A stretch of DNA of 64,000 bases from Arcobacter sp. (GTDB lineage Bacteria; Campylobacterota; Campylobacteria; Campylobacterales; Arcobacteraceae). The position numbers were made by a program, and so were the translations under genes. The stretch is from NCBI GenBank assembly GCA_002869535.1, contig PKUK01000002.1, forward strand, positions 124,001 through 188,000, written 5' to 3'. The notes under the pieces were generated by a model that was given only the letters and a program-made list of their open reading frames with translations, was not told the DNA's origin and searched no databases. Shown here piece by piece: positions 22 to 8,408 of the stretch (positions within the stretch are counted from its first letter, which is position 1; the number at the start of each line of letters is the position of its first letter).

Positions 22-67
22 TATATCTGTTTATATCATTTGCAATATCTGTTCCTTTTAAAATAAA

Positions 68-83
68 GGAATAGATTTTGCAT
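68..83 (+). promoter_or_regulatory. Sigma-54-type (-24/-12) promoter of the first nif operon
   Basis: GG at 68-69 and GC at 80-81 are exactly 10 bases apart, and the site reads GGAA-N7-TGCAT. The -12 part matches the TTGC core of sigma-54 promoters. The GC lies 35 bp before the ATG at 116, the same distance as at nifB and nifV. The sequence is 15/16 identical to the nifV site. No NifA-type enhancer site (TGT-N10-ACA) was recognised upstream. Confidence 0.75.
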
Positions 84-115
84 AGATAATTTTATAATTA
101 TTTAAAGGATTTCAA

Positions 116-502
116 ATGATAGCTATACCATTAAGTAAAGAAGATTCAACAGTGATTTCAGATTTATATGGCAATGCCCCATATTTTGCCCTTCTTGATT
201 TAAGTTCAGGAAACTTTAGTGTTGTAGAAAACAGAGGCTGTGGAAATGGAATAGATACTGCAAAGTGTGTAAAAGATTTAGGTGCTAGTAGGACTATCTT
301 TTATCATATGGGTGAAGGTGTATTTAAAAACTTGGAAGAGAATAAAATAAAAGTTTATAGTGCTACAAAAGTTTTTCTTACTATAGAAGAGATATATAGA
401 AACTTTATAAATGATGTTTCTAAACTTGTAACAAAATCAAATTGTGACACTTTATTAGATCCTGGAACATCATCTTGTTCTTGTGAGTGCGATAAAAATT
501 AG
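116..502 (+). CDS. NifX/NifB-family Fe-Mo cluster-binding protein
   Basis: This is a 128-residue protein of the dinitrogenase iron-molybdenum cofactor biosynthesis fold (NifX/NafY/NifB C-terminus; PF02579 type). It opens with the IAIPLSKED strand and has the GASRTIFYHMGEGVF region followed by the helix typical of family members that carry FeMo-co precursors. The tail is unusual: CSCECDKN ends the protein and could add a metal site. It is the first gene behind a sigma-54-type promoter and 14 bp before the nif ferredoxin. The family call is from motif recognition; the exact partner cluster is not known. Confidence 0.75.
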   Translation: MIAIPLSKEDSTVISDLYGNAPYFALLDLSSGNFSVVENRGCGNGIDTAKCVKDLGASRTIFYHMGEGVFKNLEENKIKVYSATKVFLTIEEIYRNFINDVSKLVTKSNCDTLLDPGTSSCSCECDKN

Positions 503-516
503 TAGAGGTTTGAAAA

Positions 517-897
517 ATGTCTGTAATTATTACCGATGAATGTATCAATTGTGATGCTTGTGTTGATGAGTGTCCTGCAACTGCAATTGTAAGTGCAGAT
601 GAGGCGCCTATTGCTGATGCTGAATTTACATATGTAAAGCCTGAAAAGTGTATTGAGTGTGTGGATTGTTCAGTTCCTAAGTGTTTTGATGTATGTCCAA
701 CTCCTGGAGCAATTGCTTGGGATATGCCATATACACAAGAGTTTGATGAGTATTATCTTCAAAGAGATGAAGAGGGTATTTATAAAATCAGAGTTCACAA
801 AAAAAATGGAATTTACTCACCTGCAAATCAACCTAGACCTTTTAGAGAAGTGATTGATATGCAAGATAGAATTGATTATAAGCCTTTAGAGTTTTAG
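517..897 (+). CDS. nif-associated 2x[4Fe-4S] ferredoxin (FdxB/FdxN-like)
   Basis: This 126-residue ferredoxin has a first cluster motif C9-x2-C12-x2-C15-x3-C19-P and a second, wider motif with C45, C48, C51, C56 and C60-P. The spaced second motif and the approximately 60-residue C-terminal extension are typical of ferredoxins coded in nif clusters, which are proposed to give electrons to nitrogenase or to cofactor assembly. It sits between a NifX-family gene and a HicB-like frame in the same operon. The next start overlaps its TAG stop region closely (1 bp gap). Confidence 0.85.
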   Translation: MSVIITDECINCDACVDECPATAIVSADEAPIADAEFTYVKPEKCIECVDCSVPKCFDVCPTPGAIAWDMPYTQEFDEYYLQRDEEGIYKIRVHKKNGIYSPANQPRPFREVIDMQDRIDYKPLEF

Positions 898-898
898 T

Positions 899-1180
899 AT
901 GGAAAAAGATTTAGATTATTATTTATCATTAAACTATCCCTTTGAGTGTTACAGTGGAGAGCATGAAGTGGGAGATGCTTTTTTAGTAGAGTTTTTTGAT
1001 TTTGATATAAAAGCTTCAAGTGAGGATTATGATGAGGCAGTTGAAATAGCTTACACATATTTAGAAGAACATATTAAAAGAGAATTAAAAGCAAATAGAG
1101 AAATTCCAAACCCAAATGAAGGAAGAAGATTTATGAAACATAGAGAAGCACTAGCTGCATATAAAAGTAAAGATTTTTAA
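899..1180 (+). CDS. HicB-like small protein, in frame with the downstream Sel1-NifU gene
   Basis: The 93-residue product has a HicB-antitoxin-like alpha/beta core: a YPFECYSGEHEVGDAFLVEFFDF strand pair, then a DYDEAVEIAYTYLEE helix. No HicA toxin is next to it, so it is more likely a nif-linked HicB-fold protein than a toxin-antitoxin part. The last residues (ALAAYKSKDF) already look like the start of a Sel1/TPR repeat, and that repeat carries on without a frame change past the TAA at 1178-1180. The frame may therefore be the N-terminal part of one interrupted gene, 899-1870. Confidence 0.5.
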   Translation: MEKDLDYYLSLNYPFECYSGEHEVGDAFLVEFFDFDIKASSEDYDEAVEIAYTYLEEHIKRELKANREIPNPNEGRRFMKHREALAAYKSKDF

Positions 1181-1231
1181 AAAGCTCATGCTATTTGGCA
1201 AGAAGAAGCAAAACTAAAAAATGACCAAGCA

Positions 1232-1870
1232 ATGGCAAATTTGGGTTTGATGTACTTAAAAGGTGAAGGTGTAGAAAAGCATTATTCTATTGCTAAAGAT
1301 TGGTTTGAAAAAGCTAGTTCTTATGATAATGACTCTGCAAACTTTAACTTAGCACTTATGTATCAAACAAAAATAGGTGTTGAAGAAGATATGGAAAAAG
1401 CAAAAGATTTTTTTAGACGAGCGGTTAGAAAAAATCATACTCAAGCAGCCTTTAGATTAGCACTTATTTTACTTCAAGATAGACAAAATATCAATGGAGT
1501 AAAAGAGGGCTTTGATTGTATGTTAAAAGCTGCACAAAATGGCCATACAATGGCAACTATACAATTAACAGGTATAGATAAAGAGTTAGCAAGTGATGTT
1601 GAACTAAATGATCACTTTAGAGCTCAAACAATGGAAAAACAGCTAGAAATTATAAATGATACTTTTGATAGATTTATAAGACCAATTTTATTAAAAGATG
1701 GTGGAAATATTTTATTAATAGATTATGCAAATGAACCTGAAATCGAAGTAAGACTTGCTTATCAAGGTGCTTGTGTAGGATGTTCTATTGCAAGTACTGG
1801 AACTTATGAGATGATAAAAGGTACTTTAGAAAAAGTAATTGATCCAAGGGTTAGGATTTATATATTATGA
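1232..1870 (+). CDS. Sel1-repeat protein with C-terminal NifU/Nfu domain (5' part cut off by an in-frame TAA)
   Basis: From 1232 the frame codes 212 residues: about three Sel1 repeats (for example MANLGLMYLKGEGV), then a C-terminal Nfu domain with the Fe-S ligand pair CVGC in DGGNILLIDYA...GACVGCS. Nfu domains carry Fe-S clusters to targets; Sel1 repeats bind proteins. The ATG at 1232 has no clear Shine-Dalgarno and falls inside a repeat. The 17 codons before it (from 1181) are open and complete that repeat. The intact gene therefore probably ran through the TAA at 1178-1180, where a GAA codon would fit. It overlaps nifX by ATGA. Confidence 0.7.
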   Translation: MANLGLMYLKGEGVEKHYSIAKDWFEKASSYDNDSANFNLALMYQTKIGVEEDMEKAKDFFRRAVRKNHTQAAFRLALILLQDRQNINGVKEGFDCMLKAAQNGHTMATIQLTGIDKELASDVELNDHFRAQTMEKQLEIINDTFDRFIRPILLKDGGNILLIDYANEPEIEVRLAYQGACVGCSIASTGTYEMIKGTLEKVIDPRVRIYIL

Positions 1871-2223
1871 AAATTGCATTTGCTTAAAAGGATAATATTC
1901 ACATCAATCAACATTTTGGTTGGTGTAAAGAGTTTTATATTTATGAGATTAAAGATGATACTTTCTCTTTTATAAAATCAGTTGACTCTTCTATTGAAAT
2001 AGAAGATGAAATTGAGAAATTAAATTACAAAATTGAGTGTTGTGAAGGTTGTGACATATTATATGTACAGCAAATCGGACCAAAAGCATCACTTATGGTA
2101 AAAGCTTCAAAAATATTTCCAATGCAATCAAGTAAAGAAGATGAAAAGATAGAAGATATTTTAAATAAATTAATTAAAATGAAAGAGAACCCTCCCATTT
2201 GGATGAGAAGGTTAATAGGCTAA
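1867..2223 (+). pseudogene. nifX: nifX with an in-frame TAA at codon 7
   Basis: The frame opens MKIAFA, meets TAA at 1885-1887, and goes on in the same frame as KDNIHINQHFGWCKEF and a full NifX-like domain of about 118 codons ending LIG. The HFG motif and the CCEGCDILYVQQIG region fit NifX, which binds FeMo-co precursors. No start codon exists between the stop and the HFG motif, so the complete protein needs sense decoding at codon 7. NifX proteins usually have Ser there (TCA to TAA is one change). The ATG overlaps the previous stop (ATGA), as expected for translational coupling of a once intact gene. Confidence 0.75.
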
Positions 2224-2227
2224 TAAC

Positions 2228-3466
2228 ATGTATTCAAATAAACCTATAGAAATCGCACCAAATATCTACTTTATTGGATCTTTTGATCCAGATATTAGAA
2301 CTTTTGACATTATTATGAAAACAGCCAATGGCTCTTCATATAATGCATACTTAATCAAAACAGATGAAGGTGTGATTATTTTAGATACGGTTAAATTAGA
2401 ATTTCAAGATGAGTTTTTTAAAAAAGTTGAGTCTTTATGTTCATATTCTGAGATTAAATATGTTATTTCTCACCATCTAGAACCAGACCATGCAGGTGCA
2501 ATACCAGAACTTATGAATAGAGCACCCCAAGCAAAAGTTCTAATCTCTCCCCAAGCAACACCTATGCTAAAAGCAATCACAAGAAATGAAAACATAGATT
2601 TTGAAACTGTTTGGACAAATAAAAGTTTGACCTTAGGTGATAAAACAATTAAATTTCTTACAACGCCATATTTGCACTGGCCTGAGACTATGAGTTCATA
2701 TGTAGTAGAAGATAAGTTACTATTTTCAGTGGATGTTTTTGGAAGTCATTATCACGATAGAAGACTATTCAATGACTTAGTAGGAGACTTTTTCTACTCT
2801 TTTAAATACTATTATGACCATATTATGAGACCATTTAAATCGTATGCTCTAAATGCAATCAAACTTTATGACAAACTTGAAATTGATATGATAGCAACAC
2901 TTCATGTACCAATATTAAGAGAAAACCCAACCCAGTACATTGACTACTATAGAAAATGGAGTCAAGATAATTATAAAGATGTCTCTCATGGTAAAAAAAT
3001 CATTTCGATTTTTTATCTAACAAGTTATAAAAACACTAAAGATATGGCAGAGGCTATATTTGAAGGTGCAGAAAGTGTTGATGGAATTGTCGCTAATGTT
3101 TATGATTTAGCTTCAATTGAAGAGTCAAATATGATAAATATACTTGAAGAGAGTCAAGGTGTCTTAATAGGAACTCCCACAATTAATGCAGATGCTCCAA
3201 AACCAGTTTGGGATTTACTCTCTTGTATGATGTTATTGGAAAAAAGAGGAAAAACTGGTGGTGCTTTTGGCTCTTATGGTTGGAGTGGCGAGGCTGTTGA
3301 TATGATAATACATAGATTAAAATCACTAAACTTTAGAGTTCCACCAATGGAGTCTTTAAAAATAAAATTAATACCTACTACAGAAGAACTTGCCCAGTGT
3401 TATGAGTATGGAGTAGAGTTTGGTGAAATAGTAAATGGAAAAATGCTGGAAATGACTATGAACTAG
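2228..3466 (+). CDS. A-type flavodiiron protein (FprA/NorV family)
   Basis: At 412 residues it has the usual FDP length. The N-terminal metallo-beta-lactamase-like domain (to about 245) keeps the di-iron motif H83-x-E85-x-D87-H88 and the later LHWP, DVFGSH and LHVP ligand regions. The C-terminal flavodoxin domain starts with SIFYLTSYKNTKDMA and contains the GTPTINAD and GSYGWSG FMN loops. FDPs reduce O2 or NO to water or N2O; in nif operons (for example Rhodobacter fprA) they are thought to protect or serve nitrogenase. It lies 4 bp after nifX and is followed by a strong terminator. Confidence 0.9.
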   Translation: MYSNKPIEIAPNIYFIGSFDPDIRTFDIIMKTANGSSYNAYLIKTDEGVIILDTVKLEFQDEFFKKVESLCSYSEIKYVISHHLEPDHAGAIPELMNRAPQAKVLISPQATPMLKAITRNENIDFETVWTNKSLTLGDKTIKFLTTPYLHWPETMSSYVVEDKLLFSVDVFGSHYHDRRLFNDLVGDFFYSFKYYYDHIMRPFKSYALNAIKLYDKLEIDMIATLHVPILRENPTQYIDYYRKWSQDNYKDVSHGKKIISIFYLTSYKNTKDMAEAIFEGAESVDGIVANVYDLASIEESNMINILEESQGVLIGTPTINADAPKPVWDLLSCMMLLEKRGKTGGAFGSYGWSGEAVDMIIHRLKSLNFRVPPMESLKIKLIPTTEELAQCYEYGVEFGEIVNGKMLEMTMN

Positions 3467-3477
3467 GATGAATAAAA

Positions 3478-3522
3478 TGGAGATGAGTATAAATAACTGA
3501 CTAAAACTATTACTCATCTCCA
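3478..3522 (+). terminator. Terminator after the flavodiiron gene
   Basis: A perfect 12-bp inverted repeat (TGGAGATGAGTA with its complement) surrounds a 21-nt loop and is followed by a T-rich stretch. It lies 12 bp after the flavodiiron stop and would end the first nif operon before the MFS gene. Confidence 0.7.
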
Positions 3523-3669
3523 ATTTATTTGGAATAATTAAATAAAACTCTTCTTTTTAACACACTTTATACCTCAACAACAAATTTATATACTAATTTT
3601 TATTTATTATTTGACATAGGATTAGATTTATTGATATTATACTCATATTTTGAAACTGAGGGAAAATAT

Positions 3670-4848
3670 TTGAATAGATTATTTGATAGAAATGATAACT
3701 TAGCCATACTAATAGCAGGTATTTTTGCAGTAATTATTGGTCTTGGTATCTCAAGGTTTGTTTTTACCTCTCTAATCCCAAATATGTTAGAAGATTTTTT
3801 AGATATTACCTTTGCAGGTATTTTAGCTTCACTAAATTTTGCAGGGTATTTAAGTGGTTCGATTCTCTCAATTTTTATAAAAGATATAAATCAAAAGGTA
3901 ATACTTTTTCGAATAGGTATTTTTATTTGTATTATCAATACTTTTGTTTTAGGGATTACTACCAATGAAACTATTTGGATAATCTCAAGACTATTGGCTG
4001 GTTTTGGGGGAGCTATGGCTTTTGTTGTAGGTTCTGCTATTGTAATGACTAAGTTAAATATGGAGAGTAAAACTAAAGCTATGGGGATACACTTTTCTGG
4101 TATAGGGTTTTCCATCTTAACTACTGATTTGATTAATCGAGCTGTTTTACATTTTAGTAACTCTTGGCAAATCTCATGGATAGTTTTAGCTATTTTTGGG
4201 ATTATTATCTCTATTTATTCTATGTATATTTTATCATTTGACAAAAAAGTTGACACAAAAATTGTAAAACACAAATTTGACAAATCAATTTTCACTTTTT
4301 TTGTAATTATTTTAATAATCGCCTATTTTACAGAAGGGGTAGGTTTTGTTGTTCAAGGTACATTTTTACCTGATATTATCAATACTTTGCCAGGACTTCA
4401 AGGGTATGGAAACCTAACTTGGACACTTGTTGGAATAGCTGGAATTCCTTCTTGTATTATTTGGTTAAGACTTGCTCACAAATATGGAAGTGTAAACATA
4501 ATAATTATAGCTTTAGCCCTTCAAGCAGTTGGAATTTTAATACCAACTTTTACAAATAATATCTATCTAAATTTATTAAGTGGAGTTCTTTATGGTGGGA
4601 CTTTTGTTGGATTAGTTGGTTTGTTTATGACTTTAGGTGGGCATTTGTCAAAAGGAAATCCAGTTGTACTAATGGGTGCACTTACTACTTCTTATGGAAT
4701 TGGGCAAGTTATCGCACCGTTATATAGTGTGTATTTAATTGAGAAGTTTGGTAATTATGATTATGCTTTATATTTAACAGCATTTATTGTAGTTTCTGGG
4801 ATTGTACTTTTACTGTTTGCAAAAAAGTTTCAAGCCCACAACCTTTAA
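3670..4848 (+). CDS. YbfB/YjiJ-family MFS transporter
   Basis: This inner-membrane protein of about 392 residues has roughly 12 hydrophobic segments. The first helix GIFAVIIGLGISRFVFTSLIP carries the GxGRF-like element of the YbfB/YjiJ family. The substrate of this family is not established. I place the start at the TTG at 3670, which has GAGGG seven bases upstream; an upstream TTG at 3631 in the same frame adds 13 residues but has no such site. It sits inside the nif island but has no obvious nif role. It converges with the minus-strand genes ending at 4851. Confidence 0.75.
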   Translation: MNRLFDRNDNLAILIAGIFAVIIGLGISRFVFTSLIPNMLEDFLDITFAGILASLNFAGYLSGSILSIFIKDINQKVILFRIGIFICIINTFVLGITTNETIWIISRLLAGFGGAMAFVVGSAIVMTKLNMESKTKAMGIHFSGIGFSILTTDLINRAVLHFSNSWQISWIVLAIFGIIISIYSMYILSFDKKVDTKIVKHKFDKSIFTFFVIILIIAYFTEGVGFVVQGTFLPDIINTLPGLQGYGNLTWTLVGIAGIPSCIIWLRLAHKYGSVNIIIIALALQAVGILIPTFTNNIYLNLLSGVLYGGTFVGLVGLFMTLGGHLSKGNPVVLMGALTTSYGIGQVIAPLYSVYLIEKFGNYDYALYLTAFIVVSGIVLLLFAKKFQAHNL

Positions 4849-4850
4849 GT

Positions 4851-5039
4851 TTATGATAGGTCACTAAGTGTTGATACTTTATAAACCACATCTTTAAGTT
4901 CATTTAACTTTTTTACTATATCTTTATTGCAGTGTTCATCTAGTTCAAATCTTGTCTCCATGAAATCATATATATTATCAATGTTTGAAAAAACTTCTTG
5001 CAATAACTGCTCTTTAATCTTCTCTTGAATATTACTCAT
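4851..5039 (-). CDS. Small acidic helical protein in the nif island
   Basis: The 62-residue product is mostly helical and acidic, with no motif I recognise. Its start overlaps the stop of the NifO-like gene by ATGA, so the two are translationally coupled and read from the sigma-54-type promoter at 5420-5435. This ties it to nitrogen fixation. Function unknown. Confidence 0.6.
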   Translation of the reverse strand: MSNIQEKIKEQLLQEVFSNIDNIYDFMETRFELDEHCNKDIVKKLNELKDVVYKVSTLSDLS

Positions 5040-5395
5040 TTTATCTCCTTAAGTTTAAAATCTAAGATTTTAGTTAAATCAAATCCACAAAATTTATTAG
5101 AACCAATTGCTATAAGAGGTCTTTTTATTAATATGGGATTAGAAAGCATAAGAGATAATATCTCATCTTCTGAGGTATTTTCTATATCTAGTTCTTTGTT
5201 CTTTACAATAGGAGCATTAGGGTTTATGCAATCTTTTATACTCTTTTTTCCAAAAAAATCTAGAAGTTGATTTTTTGAAAAGTTTGTCTTTAGTAAATTA
5301 GTACTAATAACATTAAAACCAAAATCAACTAATCTCTTTTTTTGTTTGGTGTTATTTACACACCCTGGTTTTTCGTAAAAAATTACTGGAATCAT
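5036..5395 (-). CDS. Nitrogenase-associated ArsC-like protein (NifO family)
   Basis: The 119-residue protein begins IPVIFYEKPGCVNNTKQK, the thioredoxin-fold start of the nitrogenase-associated family (TIGR01616-type), related to ArsC/Spx and to Azotobacter NifO. It keeps the single Cys of the ArsC active-site loop, and the RPLIAIGSNKFCGFD region that follows the IKRPL signature. It is read divergently from nifB behind its own GGAA-N7-TGCAT promoter. NifO has been linked to molybdenum use, but the reaction of this family is not known. Confidence 0.85.
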   Translation of the reverse strand: MIPVIFYEKPGCVNNTKQKKRLVDFGFNVISTNLLKTNFSKNQLLDFFGKKSIKDCINPNAPIVKNKELDIENTSEDEILSLMLSNPILIKRPLIAIGSNKFCGFDLTKILDFKLKEIK

Positions 5396-5419
5396 ATTAT
5401 CTCCTTATATAAGTACTCT

Positions 5420-5435
5420 ATGCATTTTTTATTCC
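5420..5435 (-). promoter_or_regulatory. Sigma-54-type promoter of the NifO-like operon
   Basis: On the minus strand GG (5435-5434) and GC (5423-5422) are 10 bases apart and the site reads GGAA-N7-TGCAT. It is back to back with the nifB promoter, with only 12 bp between the two GG elements. The distance from GC to the ATG at 5395 is 27 bp, shorter than the 35 bp seen for the other three. Confidence 0.7.
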
Positions 5436-5447
5436 CAGAAATTTTAT

Positions 5448-5463
5448 GGAACGCTATATGCAT
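5448..5463 (+). promoter_or_regulatory. Sigma-54-type promoter of nifB
   Basis: GG at 5448-5449 and GC at 5460-5461 with 10 bases between; the site reads GGAACG then TGCAT. The GC is 35 bp before the nifB ATG. The AAGGAG ribosome site follows at about 5485. Confidence 0.8.
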
Positions 5464-5495
5464 AAGGTACTTCATATAATTAAAAAGGAGATACT

Positions 5496-6944
5496 ATGAG
5501 TTGTTCTTGTACATCAAGTAGTACGCAAGAGGAATTACAACAAGAGGTTATGGATAAGATTAACAATCATCCATGTTATTCTGAGGGTGCCCATCAACAT
5601 TACGCGAGAATTCATGTTGCAGTTGCACCTGCTTGTAATATACAATGTAACTACTGTAATAGAAAATTTGATTGTTCAAATGAGAGTCGTCCTGGTGTAA
5701 CTTCATCGAAATTAAGTCCTGAAGATGCAGTAAAAAAAGTTTTATATGTAGGTGGGGATATTCAACAGCTTTCAGTTGTAGGAATCGCAGGACCTGGAGA
5801 TGCACTAGCAAATCCTAAAAAAACATTTGATACATTTAGAATGCTTCACGAAAAAGCACCTGATCAAAAATTATGTTTATCAACAAATGGACTAAGACTT
5901 CCTGATTATGTTGATGAAATGGTTAAATACAATGTTGATCACGTAACAGTTACTATTAATTCAGTTGATGAGACTGGTGAAATTGGAGCTAAAATTTACC
6001 CATGGGTACATTGGAATCATGAAAAAGTATTTGGAGCTGAGGGTGCAAAAATTCTTTTAGAACAACAACTAAAAGGTATCAAAATGCTTACTGAGCGAGG
6101 TATTTTGGTAAAAGCAAACTCTGTTTTAATTCCTGGTGTTAATGATAAAGAGTTAGTAAATGTAGCTAAAAAACTTAAAGAGTTAAATGTATTCTTACAC
6201 AATATTATGCCACTTCTTTCTAAAGAAGAGTATGGAACACATTATGGTCTTACAGGACAAGCAAGTGCTACTGATCAAGAAGTAATGGCAGCACAAGAAG
6301 CATGTGGTATGGATATGAAACTAATGAGTCACTGTAGACAATGTCGTGCAGATGCTGTTGGACTTATTGGTGAAGATAGAGGAGAAGAGTTTACTCCTGA
6401 TGTTTTCCAAAATATGTCTTGCGAAGAGTTACAAGAACAATATAACATGGAAGCAAGAGCTAAAAAACATGAAGTTATTGAAAACTGGAGAGCAGCACTT
6501 GATACTGCAAATGAAAGAATCAAAATAGAACAAGCTAGTAAACAAGAGTTAAGCTCTACTGGTGAGACTAAACTTGTAGCTGTTACAACAGCTGGTGAAG
6601 GAACAGTAAACTTACACTTTGGTAATGCTACAGAGTTCTTAATTTACGAAGTTGGTGATAAAGCTATCAAATTTGTAATGCATAGAAAAGTTGAAAATGC
6701 TTATTGTAAAGGTCCTGAAGATTGTGATGGTTCTTATCCAATTGAAGAGATTAAAAATACACTAAAAGATGTAGATATTCTTTTAACAGAAAAAATTGGT
6801 GGATGTCCTCAAGAAGAATTATCTCAAATCAACTTTATTTCTGATGACTCATATGCACTACAACCAATAGAAAAATCTGTATTTGCAGCAGCTCAAAAAT
6901 ATTTCTTTAGTGCTGAAGCAAAATCACAAAAAGAGTTAGGGTAA
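5496..6944 (+). CDS. nifB: NifB, radical SAM FeMo-cofactor core synthase
   Basis: NifB makes NifB-co, the Fe-S-C core of FeMo-co, from two [4Fe-4S] clusters and SAM. The 482-residue product has the radical SAM motif C47-x3-C51-x2-C54 (ACNIQCNYC), extra N-terminal cysteines (SCSC), and the conserved AGPGDALANP and VNSVLIPGVND segments. From about residue 355 there is a fused NifX-like domain (VAVTTAGEGTVNLHFGNA). Length and layout match two-domain NifB. It is read from a sigma-54-type promoter and followed 16 bp later by a small gene of unknown role. Confidence 0.97.
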   Translation: MSCSCTSSSTQEELQQEVMDKINNHPCYSEGAHQHYARIHVAVAPACNIQCNYCNRKFDCSNESRPGVTSSKLSPEDAVKKVLYVGGDIQQLSVVGIAGPGDALANPKKTFDTFRMLHEKAPDQKLCLSTNGLRLPDYVDEMVKYNVDHVTVTINSVDETGEIGAKIYPWVHWNHEKVFGAEGAKILLEQQLKGIKMLTERGILVKANSVLIPGVNDKELVNVAKKLKELNVFLHNIMPLLSKEEYGTHYGLTGQASATDQEVMAAQEACGMDMKLMSHCRQCRADAVGLIGEDRGEEFTPDVFQNMSCEELQEQYNMEARAKKHEVIENWRAALDTANERIKIEQASKQELSSTGETKLVAVTTAGEGTVNLHFGNATEFLIYEVGDKAIKFVMHRKVENAYCKGPEDCDGSYPIEEIKNTLKDVDILLTEKIGGCPQEELSQINFISDDSYALQPIEKSVFAAAQKYFFSAEAKSQKELG

Positions 6945-6960
6945 ACCCTAGCTTTATTTG

Positions 6961-7236
6961 ATGAACTCAAAAGTTATACTCCTAAAAGGAAATGGACCAA
7001 TCTCTATAAATAGTGAGTTACTAGAACTTTATCCTGTAACTACTTGCCATGGAGCCATTGGTTTTCCTCTAAAATCATTAAGAGCAGATAAGATTTATAT
7101 TGTTGATTCTATTGATGAGTTTTGGCAAATAGAAAAAACTATCAAAGAGAAACCTTGCTGCTTTTTATACTCCTATGAAAAACTTGAAAATGAAGATTTA
7201 AAAAAGATACATGCTGAGGAGATTTTAAGCATATAA
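6961..7236 (+). CDS. Small protein downstream of nifB, function unknown
   Basis: A 91-residue soluble alpha/beta protein (VILLKGNGPISINSELLELYP...) that I do not recognise. It has conserved-looking Cys residues (TTCHGAIGFP, KPCCFLYSYE). I use the ATG at 6961; a TTG directly before it is also in frame. It follows nifB without a strong terminator, only a 6-bp TAGGGT/ACCCTA hairpin over the nifB stop, and ends just before the nifV promoter, so it is probably co-expressed with nifB. Confidence 0.6.
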   Translation: MNSKVILLKGNGPISINSELLELYPVTTCHGAIGFPLKSLRADKIYIVDSIDEFWQIEKTIKEKPCCFLYSYEKLENEDLKKIHAEEILSI

Positions 7237-7244
7237 ATTTTTAG

Positions 7245-7260
7245 GGAATAGTTTTTGCAT
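7245..7260 (+). promoter_or_regulatory. Sigma-54-type promoter of nifV
   Basis: GG at 7245-7246, GC at 7257-7258, spacing 10, sequence GGAATAG then TTTTTGCAT. It differs from the site at 68-83 at one base of 16, and the GC is again 35 bp from the start codon. Confidence 0.78.
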
Positions 7261-7292: not shown

Positions 7293-8408
7293 ATGTTTCT
7301 TATTAATGATACTACTTTAAGAGATGGCGAACAAGCACCATATGTAGCATTTAATACACAAGAGAAACTTTATATTGCCCAAAAACTTTATGAAGCGGGC
7401 GCTGATGAACTTGAAGTTGGAATACCAGCAATGGGAAAGAAAGAGCAAGATGATCTAAAAGAGATATTAGCTTTAAATCTTCCTATTCAAATTATGAGTT
7501 GCAATAGAGCAACAATGTCTGACTTGGAAGCCTCTTTAGGGTGTGGCTTAAAAGCGGTTGATTTGTCTATTCCAGTTTCAGATATTCTAATCGATGTAAA
7601 ATTCGGTGGAGATAAACAAAAAGTTTTAGCACAACTTGAAAAAGTTATTATTGAGGCTAAAAGAGAAGGGTTATTTGTTTGCATTGGGGGAGAAGATTCA
7701 AGTCGCGCGGATTTGGATTTTTTAAAAGAGATTTTAGCCTTAGGTAAAAGTCTTGGTGCAAATAGATTTAGATATTGCGATACGGTTGGAATATTAACAC
7801 CAACAAAAACTTATCAAAATATAAGTGAACTTACAAAGTTAGATTTACTTGATATTGAGATGCATACCCACAATGATTTTGGTATGGCAACAGCAAATGC
7901 AATTTCTGGTTATGAAGCAGGAGCTAAAAGTGCTAATACAACAGTTATTGGATTGGGTGAACGCGCGGGGAATGCATCTTTTGAGCAAGTATTGATGACT
8001 TTGGCAAGACTTCTTGGAAAAAATACTCAAATAAAACCTGATAAATTAAAAGCACTTATTCAAACAGTAGGATTAGCTTCAAATAGAAGAATTGATACTA
8101 ATTTACCTATTGTAGGAGAGTATATTTTTTCACATGAGTCAGGTATTCATGTAAATGGTATGATGAAATCAAAAAGTGCCTATGAACCATTTACTCCTAT
8201 GGATGTTGGGCTAGAGAGATGTTTCCCTATTGGAAAACATTCAGGAACATCAACACTACTTTTTCATCTACAAGCATTGGGAATAACTCCAACAAAAGAG
8301 AGTTTACAAAAAATATTGCCAATAGTAAGAGAGATTGTGACAAGTAGAAAGAAAGTGTTAGATATAAAAGAATTGGAAGAGTTATACTTATGTTCGTTGG
8401 ATATTTAA
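7293..8408 (+). CDS. nifV: NifV, homocitrate synthase
   Basis: This enzyme condenses acetyl-CoA with 2-oxoglutarate to give R-homocitrate, the organic ligand of FeMo-co. The 371-residue product starts with the family signature NDTTLRDGEQAP, has the metal-site HTHNDFGMATANA motif and the GLGERAGNASFEQV motif, and the length of NifV without a LeuA regulatory domain. It has its own sigma-54-type promoter. It overlaps the next gene by 19 bp. Confidence 0.93.
   Translation: MFLINDTTLRDGEQAPYVAFNTQEKLYIAQKLYEAGADELEVGIPAMGKKEQDDLKEILALNLPIQIMSCNRATMSDLEASLGCGLKAVDLSIPVSDILIDVKFGGDKQKVLAQLEKVIIEAKREGLFVCIGGEDSSRADLDFLKEILALGKSLGANRFRYCDTVGILTPTKTYQNISELTKLDLLDIEMHTHNDFGMATANAISGYEAGAKSANTTVIGLGERAGNASFEQVLMTLARLLGKNTQIKPDKLKALIQTVGLASNRRIDTNLPIVGEYIFSHESGIHVNGMMKSKSAYEPFTPMDVGLERCFPIGKHSGTSTLLFHLQALGITPTKESLQKILPIVREIVTSRKKVLDIKELEELYLCSLDI

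Follow-up and report, generated by a model that had tools for sequence, protein, structure and literature searches.

Introduction

Klebsiella-type nif promoters combine a GG-N10-GC core with an activator of the NifA family and a TGT-N10-ACA enhancer. In R. (Cereibacter) sphaeroides two sigma-54 factors share the work, RpoN1 serving nif and RpoN2 the flagella, with NifA pairing with the nif copy (PMC11999139, citing Poggio 2006), and the promoters of the two are reportedly told apart partly by the base at -11 (PMC11999139 and PMC3538637). The rpoN2 genes of Mesorhizobium loti and Rhizobium etli are carried on a symbiosis or nif element, where their operon has a sigma-54 promoter to itself, and are needed for nitrogen fixation (PMC3538637). 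Among the Campylobacterota, the flagellar sigma-54 promoters of C. jejuni follow the consensus GGaa-N6-tTGCTt (PMC3847290), A. butzleri has been described as lacking RpoN (PMC2147049), and RpoN has been stated to be lost in all Arcobacter (PMC9321776). Our literature search found no paper joining Arcobacter or Sulfurospirillum with rpoN and nitrogen fixation.

Sigma-54-type sites cluster at nif operons

The window, a 64-kb stretch of an Arcobacter genome of 2.68 Mb (positions 124001-188000 of contig C7), contains exactly four matches to GGAA-N7-TGCAT, the same four that a first-pass annotation had put forward as sigma-54-type nif promoters: GGAATAGATTTTGCAT at 68-83 (+), GGAATAAAAAATGCAT at 5420-5435 (-), GGAACGCTATATGCAT at 5448-5463 (+) and GGAATAGTTTTTGCAT at 7245-7260 (+). 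Only 0.49 would be expected by chance, and none of 100 shuffles reached four. A relaxed pattern recovered a fifth site that had gone unlisted, GGAACAGATATTGCAA at 40-55 (-), which is conserved before nifE across the family; the nifE start lies 86 bp downstream, just left of the window. The window sites all place a GG-N10-GC core upstream of a gene. The predicted promoter at 68-83 ends 32 bp before the ATG (at 116) of an operon whose first gene encodes a 128-aa NifX/NifY-type protein (116-502, +; Pfam Nitro_FeMo-Co), followed by genes for a ferredoxin-type 4Fe-4S protein (517-897, +), a Sel1-repeat protein with a NifU domain (899-1870, +) and a second NifX-like protein (1867-2223, +); the last two are interrupted in the assembly, by TAA at 1178-1180 (GAA in a same-genus relative) and at 1885-1887 (a Ser codon in the relative). 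The minus-strand site at 5420-5435 lies 24 bp before the ATG of a gene for an ArsC/Spx-type nitrogenase-associated protein (5036-5395, -; TIGR01616, just under its cut-off). The remaining two end 32 bp before the ATGs at 5496 and 7293 of nifB (5496-6944, +; TIGR01290, above cut-off) and of nifV, the gene for homocitrate synthase (7293-8408, +; TIGR02660, 462.4 bits against a cut-off of 462.9). A conserved 92-aa gene with no Pfam or NCBIfam match sits between nifB and nifV, at 6958-7236.

Scanning the whole genome, as the first-pass annotation had proposed, returned 40 matches, 10 of them within a nif island of ~40 kb (C7 90.9-131.3 kb). Nine of these ten, together with the site before nifE and one before nifH that reads TGCAA, precede genes or operons of the island (ferredoxin, an AKR gene, nifH, nifX, nifN, nifE, the 128-aa NifX-type gene, the ArsC-like gene, nifB, nifV and one more), and the tenth (C7:114755) lies inside a flavodoxin gene. 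Outside the island, 28 of the 30 matches are in open frames, one overlaps a start codon and one (C5:377841-377856) precedes the cysteine desulfurase gene iscS (loci L102, L406-L408); this last site is kept in all three same-genus genomes, but the seven other relatives compared lack it. If the shuffle rate of the window holds, ~20 matches would be expected in 2.7 Mb, as a reading of the sites as chance matches in an AT-rich genome would have it; that reading is refuted, to the point of having virtually no probability left, by the clustering at nif starts and by conservation over 22 islands, where nifH, E, N, X, B and V repeatedly have such sites upstream. The same clustering supports the assignment of the sites as nif promoters.

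A fixed distance of 35 bp to the ATG had also been claimed. The three plus-strand sites do lie exactly 35 bp from the start if the distance is taken between the C of GC and the A of ATG (equivalent to 32 bp from the site end), but the minus-strand site is 8 bp closer to its ATG, other sites of the island end 24, 28, 38, 86, 90 or 95 bp before theirs, and the distances of 187 family sites have their mode at 30-33 bp (72 sites) within a range of 19-158. Since the spacing varies between sites and between genomes, we rejected it as a regulatory feature.

The island encodes the only RpoN and the only sigma-54 activator of the genome

The genome has a single rpoN (C7:111.7-112.9 kb) and a sole true sigma-54 activator (enhancer-binding protein), NifA (C7:94.1-95.6 kb), so that the two regulators that the first-pass annotation had recommended looking for are present once each, in the same island. 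The same-genus orthologue of RpoN is recognised by the sigma-54 models of Pfam and NCBIfam, the copy in the window genome having three in-frame stops, and the best NCBIfam model for the activator is nifA (TIGR01817), which matches its C-terminal 363 aa below the full-length cut-off. Among 104 genomes of the family Arcobacteraceae, 33 carry rpoN and 30 carry nifH, and all 30 of the latter have both rpoN and NifA. The occurrence of rpoN in 33 of 104 genomes contradicts the published statements that Arcobacter lacks RpoN and corrects its reported loss across all Arcobacter (PMC9321776): those that fix nitrogen retain a different RpoN, linked to nif.

Taken together, we estimate a probability of roughly 85% that the sites are promoters of nif operons, read by the nif-type RpoN encoded in the island and opened by NifA. 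They would act as -24/-12 promoters from which the operons of this Arcobacteraceae bacterium are transcribed; the reader would be the RpoN encoded in the island operon that holds nifX, ferredoxin and rpoN, and opening would depend on NifA as the single sigma-54 activator of the cell. The flagellar RpoN of other Campylobacterota is missing here, and sigma-54 would therefore serve nif only, plus one recruited iscS gene. Because the rpoN operon itself begins with such a promoter, the nif-type RpoN is probably self-amplifying.

In the assembly of the window genome, rpoN contains three in-frame stops (Ser93, Glu143 and Glu351), nifA one (Ser29) and nifD one (Gly68), and several other island genes are likewise interrupted, as might be expected if the regulon were dead in this strain, with rpoN, nifA and nifD reduced to pseudogenes and the promoters to relics. 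However, the stops (window 1178-1180, 1885-1887 and 36783; C7 95.5, 104.6, 107.4, 111.9, 112.5, 112.7 and 115.6 kb) affect gatB and a chemotaxis-type gene as well as nif genes, each is consistent with a G-to-T or C-to-A substitution, no frameshift was found, and the corresponding genes are intact in same-genus relatives. The gatB gene, interrupted by a similar stop (window 36783), is normally essential, which also argues against a dead regulon, an explanation that we regard as improbable. The stops look like the signature of errors or of a mutator in this genome, and sequence or assembly error is the likelier, though unproven, source.

The nif-type RpoN forms a separate clade

In a 72-row tree, the island RpoNs and the second copies from Sulfurospirillaceae (f19) and Sulfurimonadaceae (f15) form one clade (100/99). 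This separate, nif-linked group, which is the second copy in Sulfurospirillum, Sulfuricurvum and relatives, is a putative nif-dedicated sigma-54 paralogue: it is found in the operon context nifX, NifX-associated gene, flavodoxin, nifZ-type gene, ferredoxin, rpoN, and 69 of its 75 public loci have nif-operon neighbours within 2 kb. The other rpoN copy of Sulfurospirillaceae adjoins a gene resembling lptB. Residues that are fixed, or almost so, tell the two RpoN clades apart, for example Leu269 (38/38) versus Ala (37/37). The nif-type copies of Sulfurospirillaceae nest inside Arcobacteraceae in the tree, which suggests that the nif island moved between families by transfer; because the island seems to bring a sigma factor with it, it is relevant to the moving of nif clusters between hosts. 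Similarly, the operon holding rpoN2 in M. loti and R. etli belongs to a symbiosis or nif element and has its own sigma-54 promoter (PMC3538637).

The base after GC differs between nif and flagellar promoters

When the base directly after GC (-11) was left free, it was A in 179 of 179 upstream sites from 22 islands, against T in 12 of 12 flagellar sigma-54 sites from five genomes of other families, a comparison that is partly confounded in that the A sites come from single-RpoN genomes, and genomes with both factors contributed only a few strict sites. GG and GC are kept in all 187 family sites, both being required by the search pattern. The extended TGCAT had been taken to suggest a lineage-specific consensus for nif genes; TGCAT is indeed characteristic of nif promoters in this group, but GGAA also occurs in Campylobacter flagellar sigma-54 promoters (PMC3847290), so that only the A after GC is nif-specific. 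The likeness to the flagellar RpoN promoters of C. jejuni (PMC3847290) extends to GGAA at -24, TTGC at -12 and equal spacing, whereas the A in place of T after GC, the nif rather than flagellar genes served and the RpoN clade set the present sites apart.

Genomes with two RpoNs show further departures. The nifH promoters of Sulfurospirillaceae have TGCAA, in nif promoters of Sulfurimonadaceae GGAA is mostly replaced by AGAA or CGAA, with TGCA (L255, L317-L323, L326), and six nif promoters of one genome (G229; L324, L325) have GA or GT replacing GC at -12 (TGAA or TGTA for TGCA), resembling the nifH promoter of M. loti and R. etli, in which A replaces C at -12 (PMC3538637). As a separate observation, Sulfurimonadaceae RpoNs read KERLF or KERAF for KERKK just after the RpoN box, a possible co-change with the AGAA and CGAA promoters.

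An A directly after GC would thus be a signature of promoters read by the nif-type RpoN, and T of flagellar ones, with the base at -11 possibly contributing to recognition. Alternatively, these could be ordinary nif sigma-54 promoters read by interchangeable RpoNs, the A and T having drifted without selection between factors. The general consensus TGGCACG-N4-TTGCW, quoted in PMC3538637, permits A or T (W) at this position, and A alone need not mean selectivity. Drift is nonetheless an unlikely account: a split of 179/179 against 12/12 is not drift-like, the nif promoters of two-RpoN genomes also differ from flagellar ones at -24 (AG or CG) or -12 (GA or GT), and fixed residues separate the two RpoN clades. 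A selective nif-type RpoN would match R. sphaeroides in its separate nif and flagellar sigma-54 copies, its contrast at -11 and the pairing of NifA with the nif copy, and would differ from it in belonging to another phylum, in that selectivity is here deduced from sequence alone, and in that Arcobacteraceae keep the nif copy only. It would add to R. sphaeroides, from a different phylum, a second natural example of a pair of sigma-54 factors that promoter sequence seems to keep apart.

NifA probably acts without a classical enhancer

TGT-N10-ACA lies upstream of 12 of the 187 family promoters against 12.2 expected, that is, at chance level, while the same search detects it at 5 of 11 promoters of four proteobacterial nif plasmids (0.28 expected). 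The earlier failure to recognise a NifA-type enhancer is therefore borne out, and activation probably proceeds without the classical one. The locus resembles the Klebsiella-type arrangement in its GG-N10-GC promoters and NifA-family activator and departs from it in the undetected TGT-N10-ACA enhancer and in that the cell as a whole has a single activator and a single sigma-54. In M. loti and R. etli, NifA enhancers (UAS) are present (PMC3538637), whereas here they are undetectable.

NifA may instead use an enhancer that a motif search would miss because its sequence differs or because it lies elsewhere, for instance within the divergent genes, and we give this close to an even chance. The Fis-type recognition helix of NifA is preserved in most genomes, and in 18 of 22 genomes an inverted repeat (TARGAYA-N5-TRTCYTA, C7:106263-106281) is conserved ahead of nifH, 114-117 bp upstream of the GG. 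On the other side, a general dyad search across nif promoters found no shared pattern except the partner promoter, and NifA lacks its DNA-binding domain (HTH) in G102 (L247) and has a degenerate recognition helix in G079 (L240), G081 (L236) and G082 (L242), though all four genomes kept their nif promoters. The nifH repeat also stands beside iscS/sufB, tpx, ahpC/ferredoxin and other stress genes (C5:377902, 378038, 453195 and 231363; C4:88639) and at no other nif promoter, for which reason we rejected it as a general nif enhancer; this distribution makes it look like the operator of another regulator, probably one of oxidative stress or Fe-S functions with nifH among its targets.

We hypothesize that NifA activates without any enhancer. 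In a broader proposal, which we hold tentatively and at somewhat under even odds, a sigma-54 borne on the nif operon evolved independently in Campylobacterota, its promoter code drifted in each lineage (A at -11 nearly everywhere, AG or CG for GG in the Sulfuricurvum type, GA or GT for GC in G229), and NifA of Arcobacteraceae came to work enhancer-free because one sigma-54, one activator and one promoter set were left. Enhancer-free activation would in turn have allowed promoters to lie back to back 12 bp apart and the DNA-binding domain of NifA to decay. This minimal sigma-54 system, with one factor, one activator and one pathway, is a setting in which enhancer-free activation is testable.

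The 12-bp gap between the sites at 5420-5435 and 5448-5463 had been correctly described. It had also been taken to leave no room for an upstream enhancer between the promoters, but a back-to-back arrangement alone does not rule one out, as it might be placed on the far side of the opposite promoter. With the fifth site, at 40-55 (-), divergent from that at 68-83 (+) across another 12 bp, the window contains two back-to-back pairs with the same gap. Divergent pairs overall are separated by 10-13 bp or, for five of them, by 22-23 bp, about one helical turn more, and these two classes may reflect phasing or ancestry.
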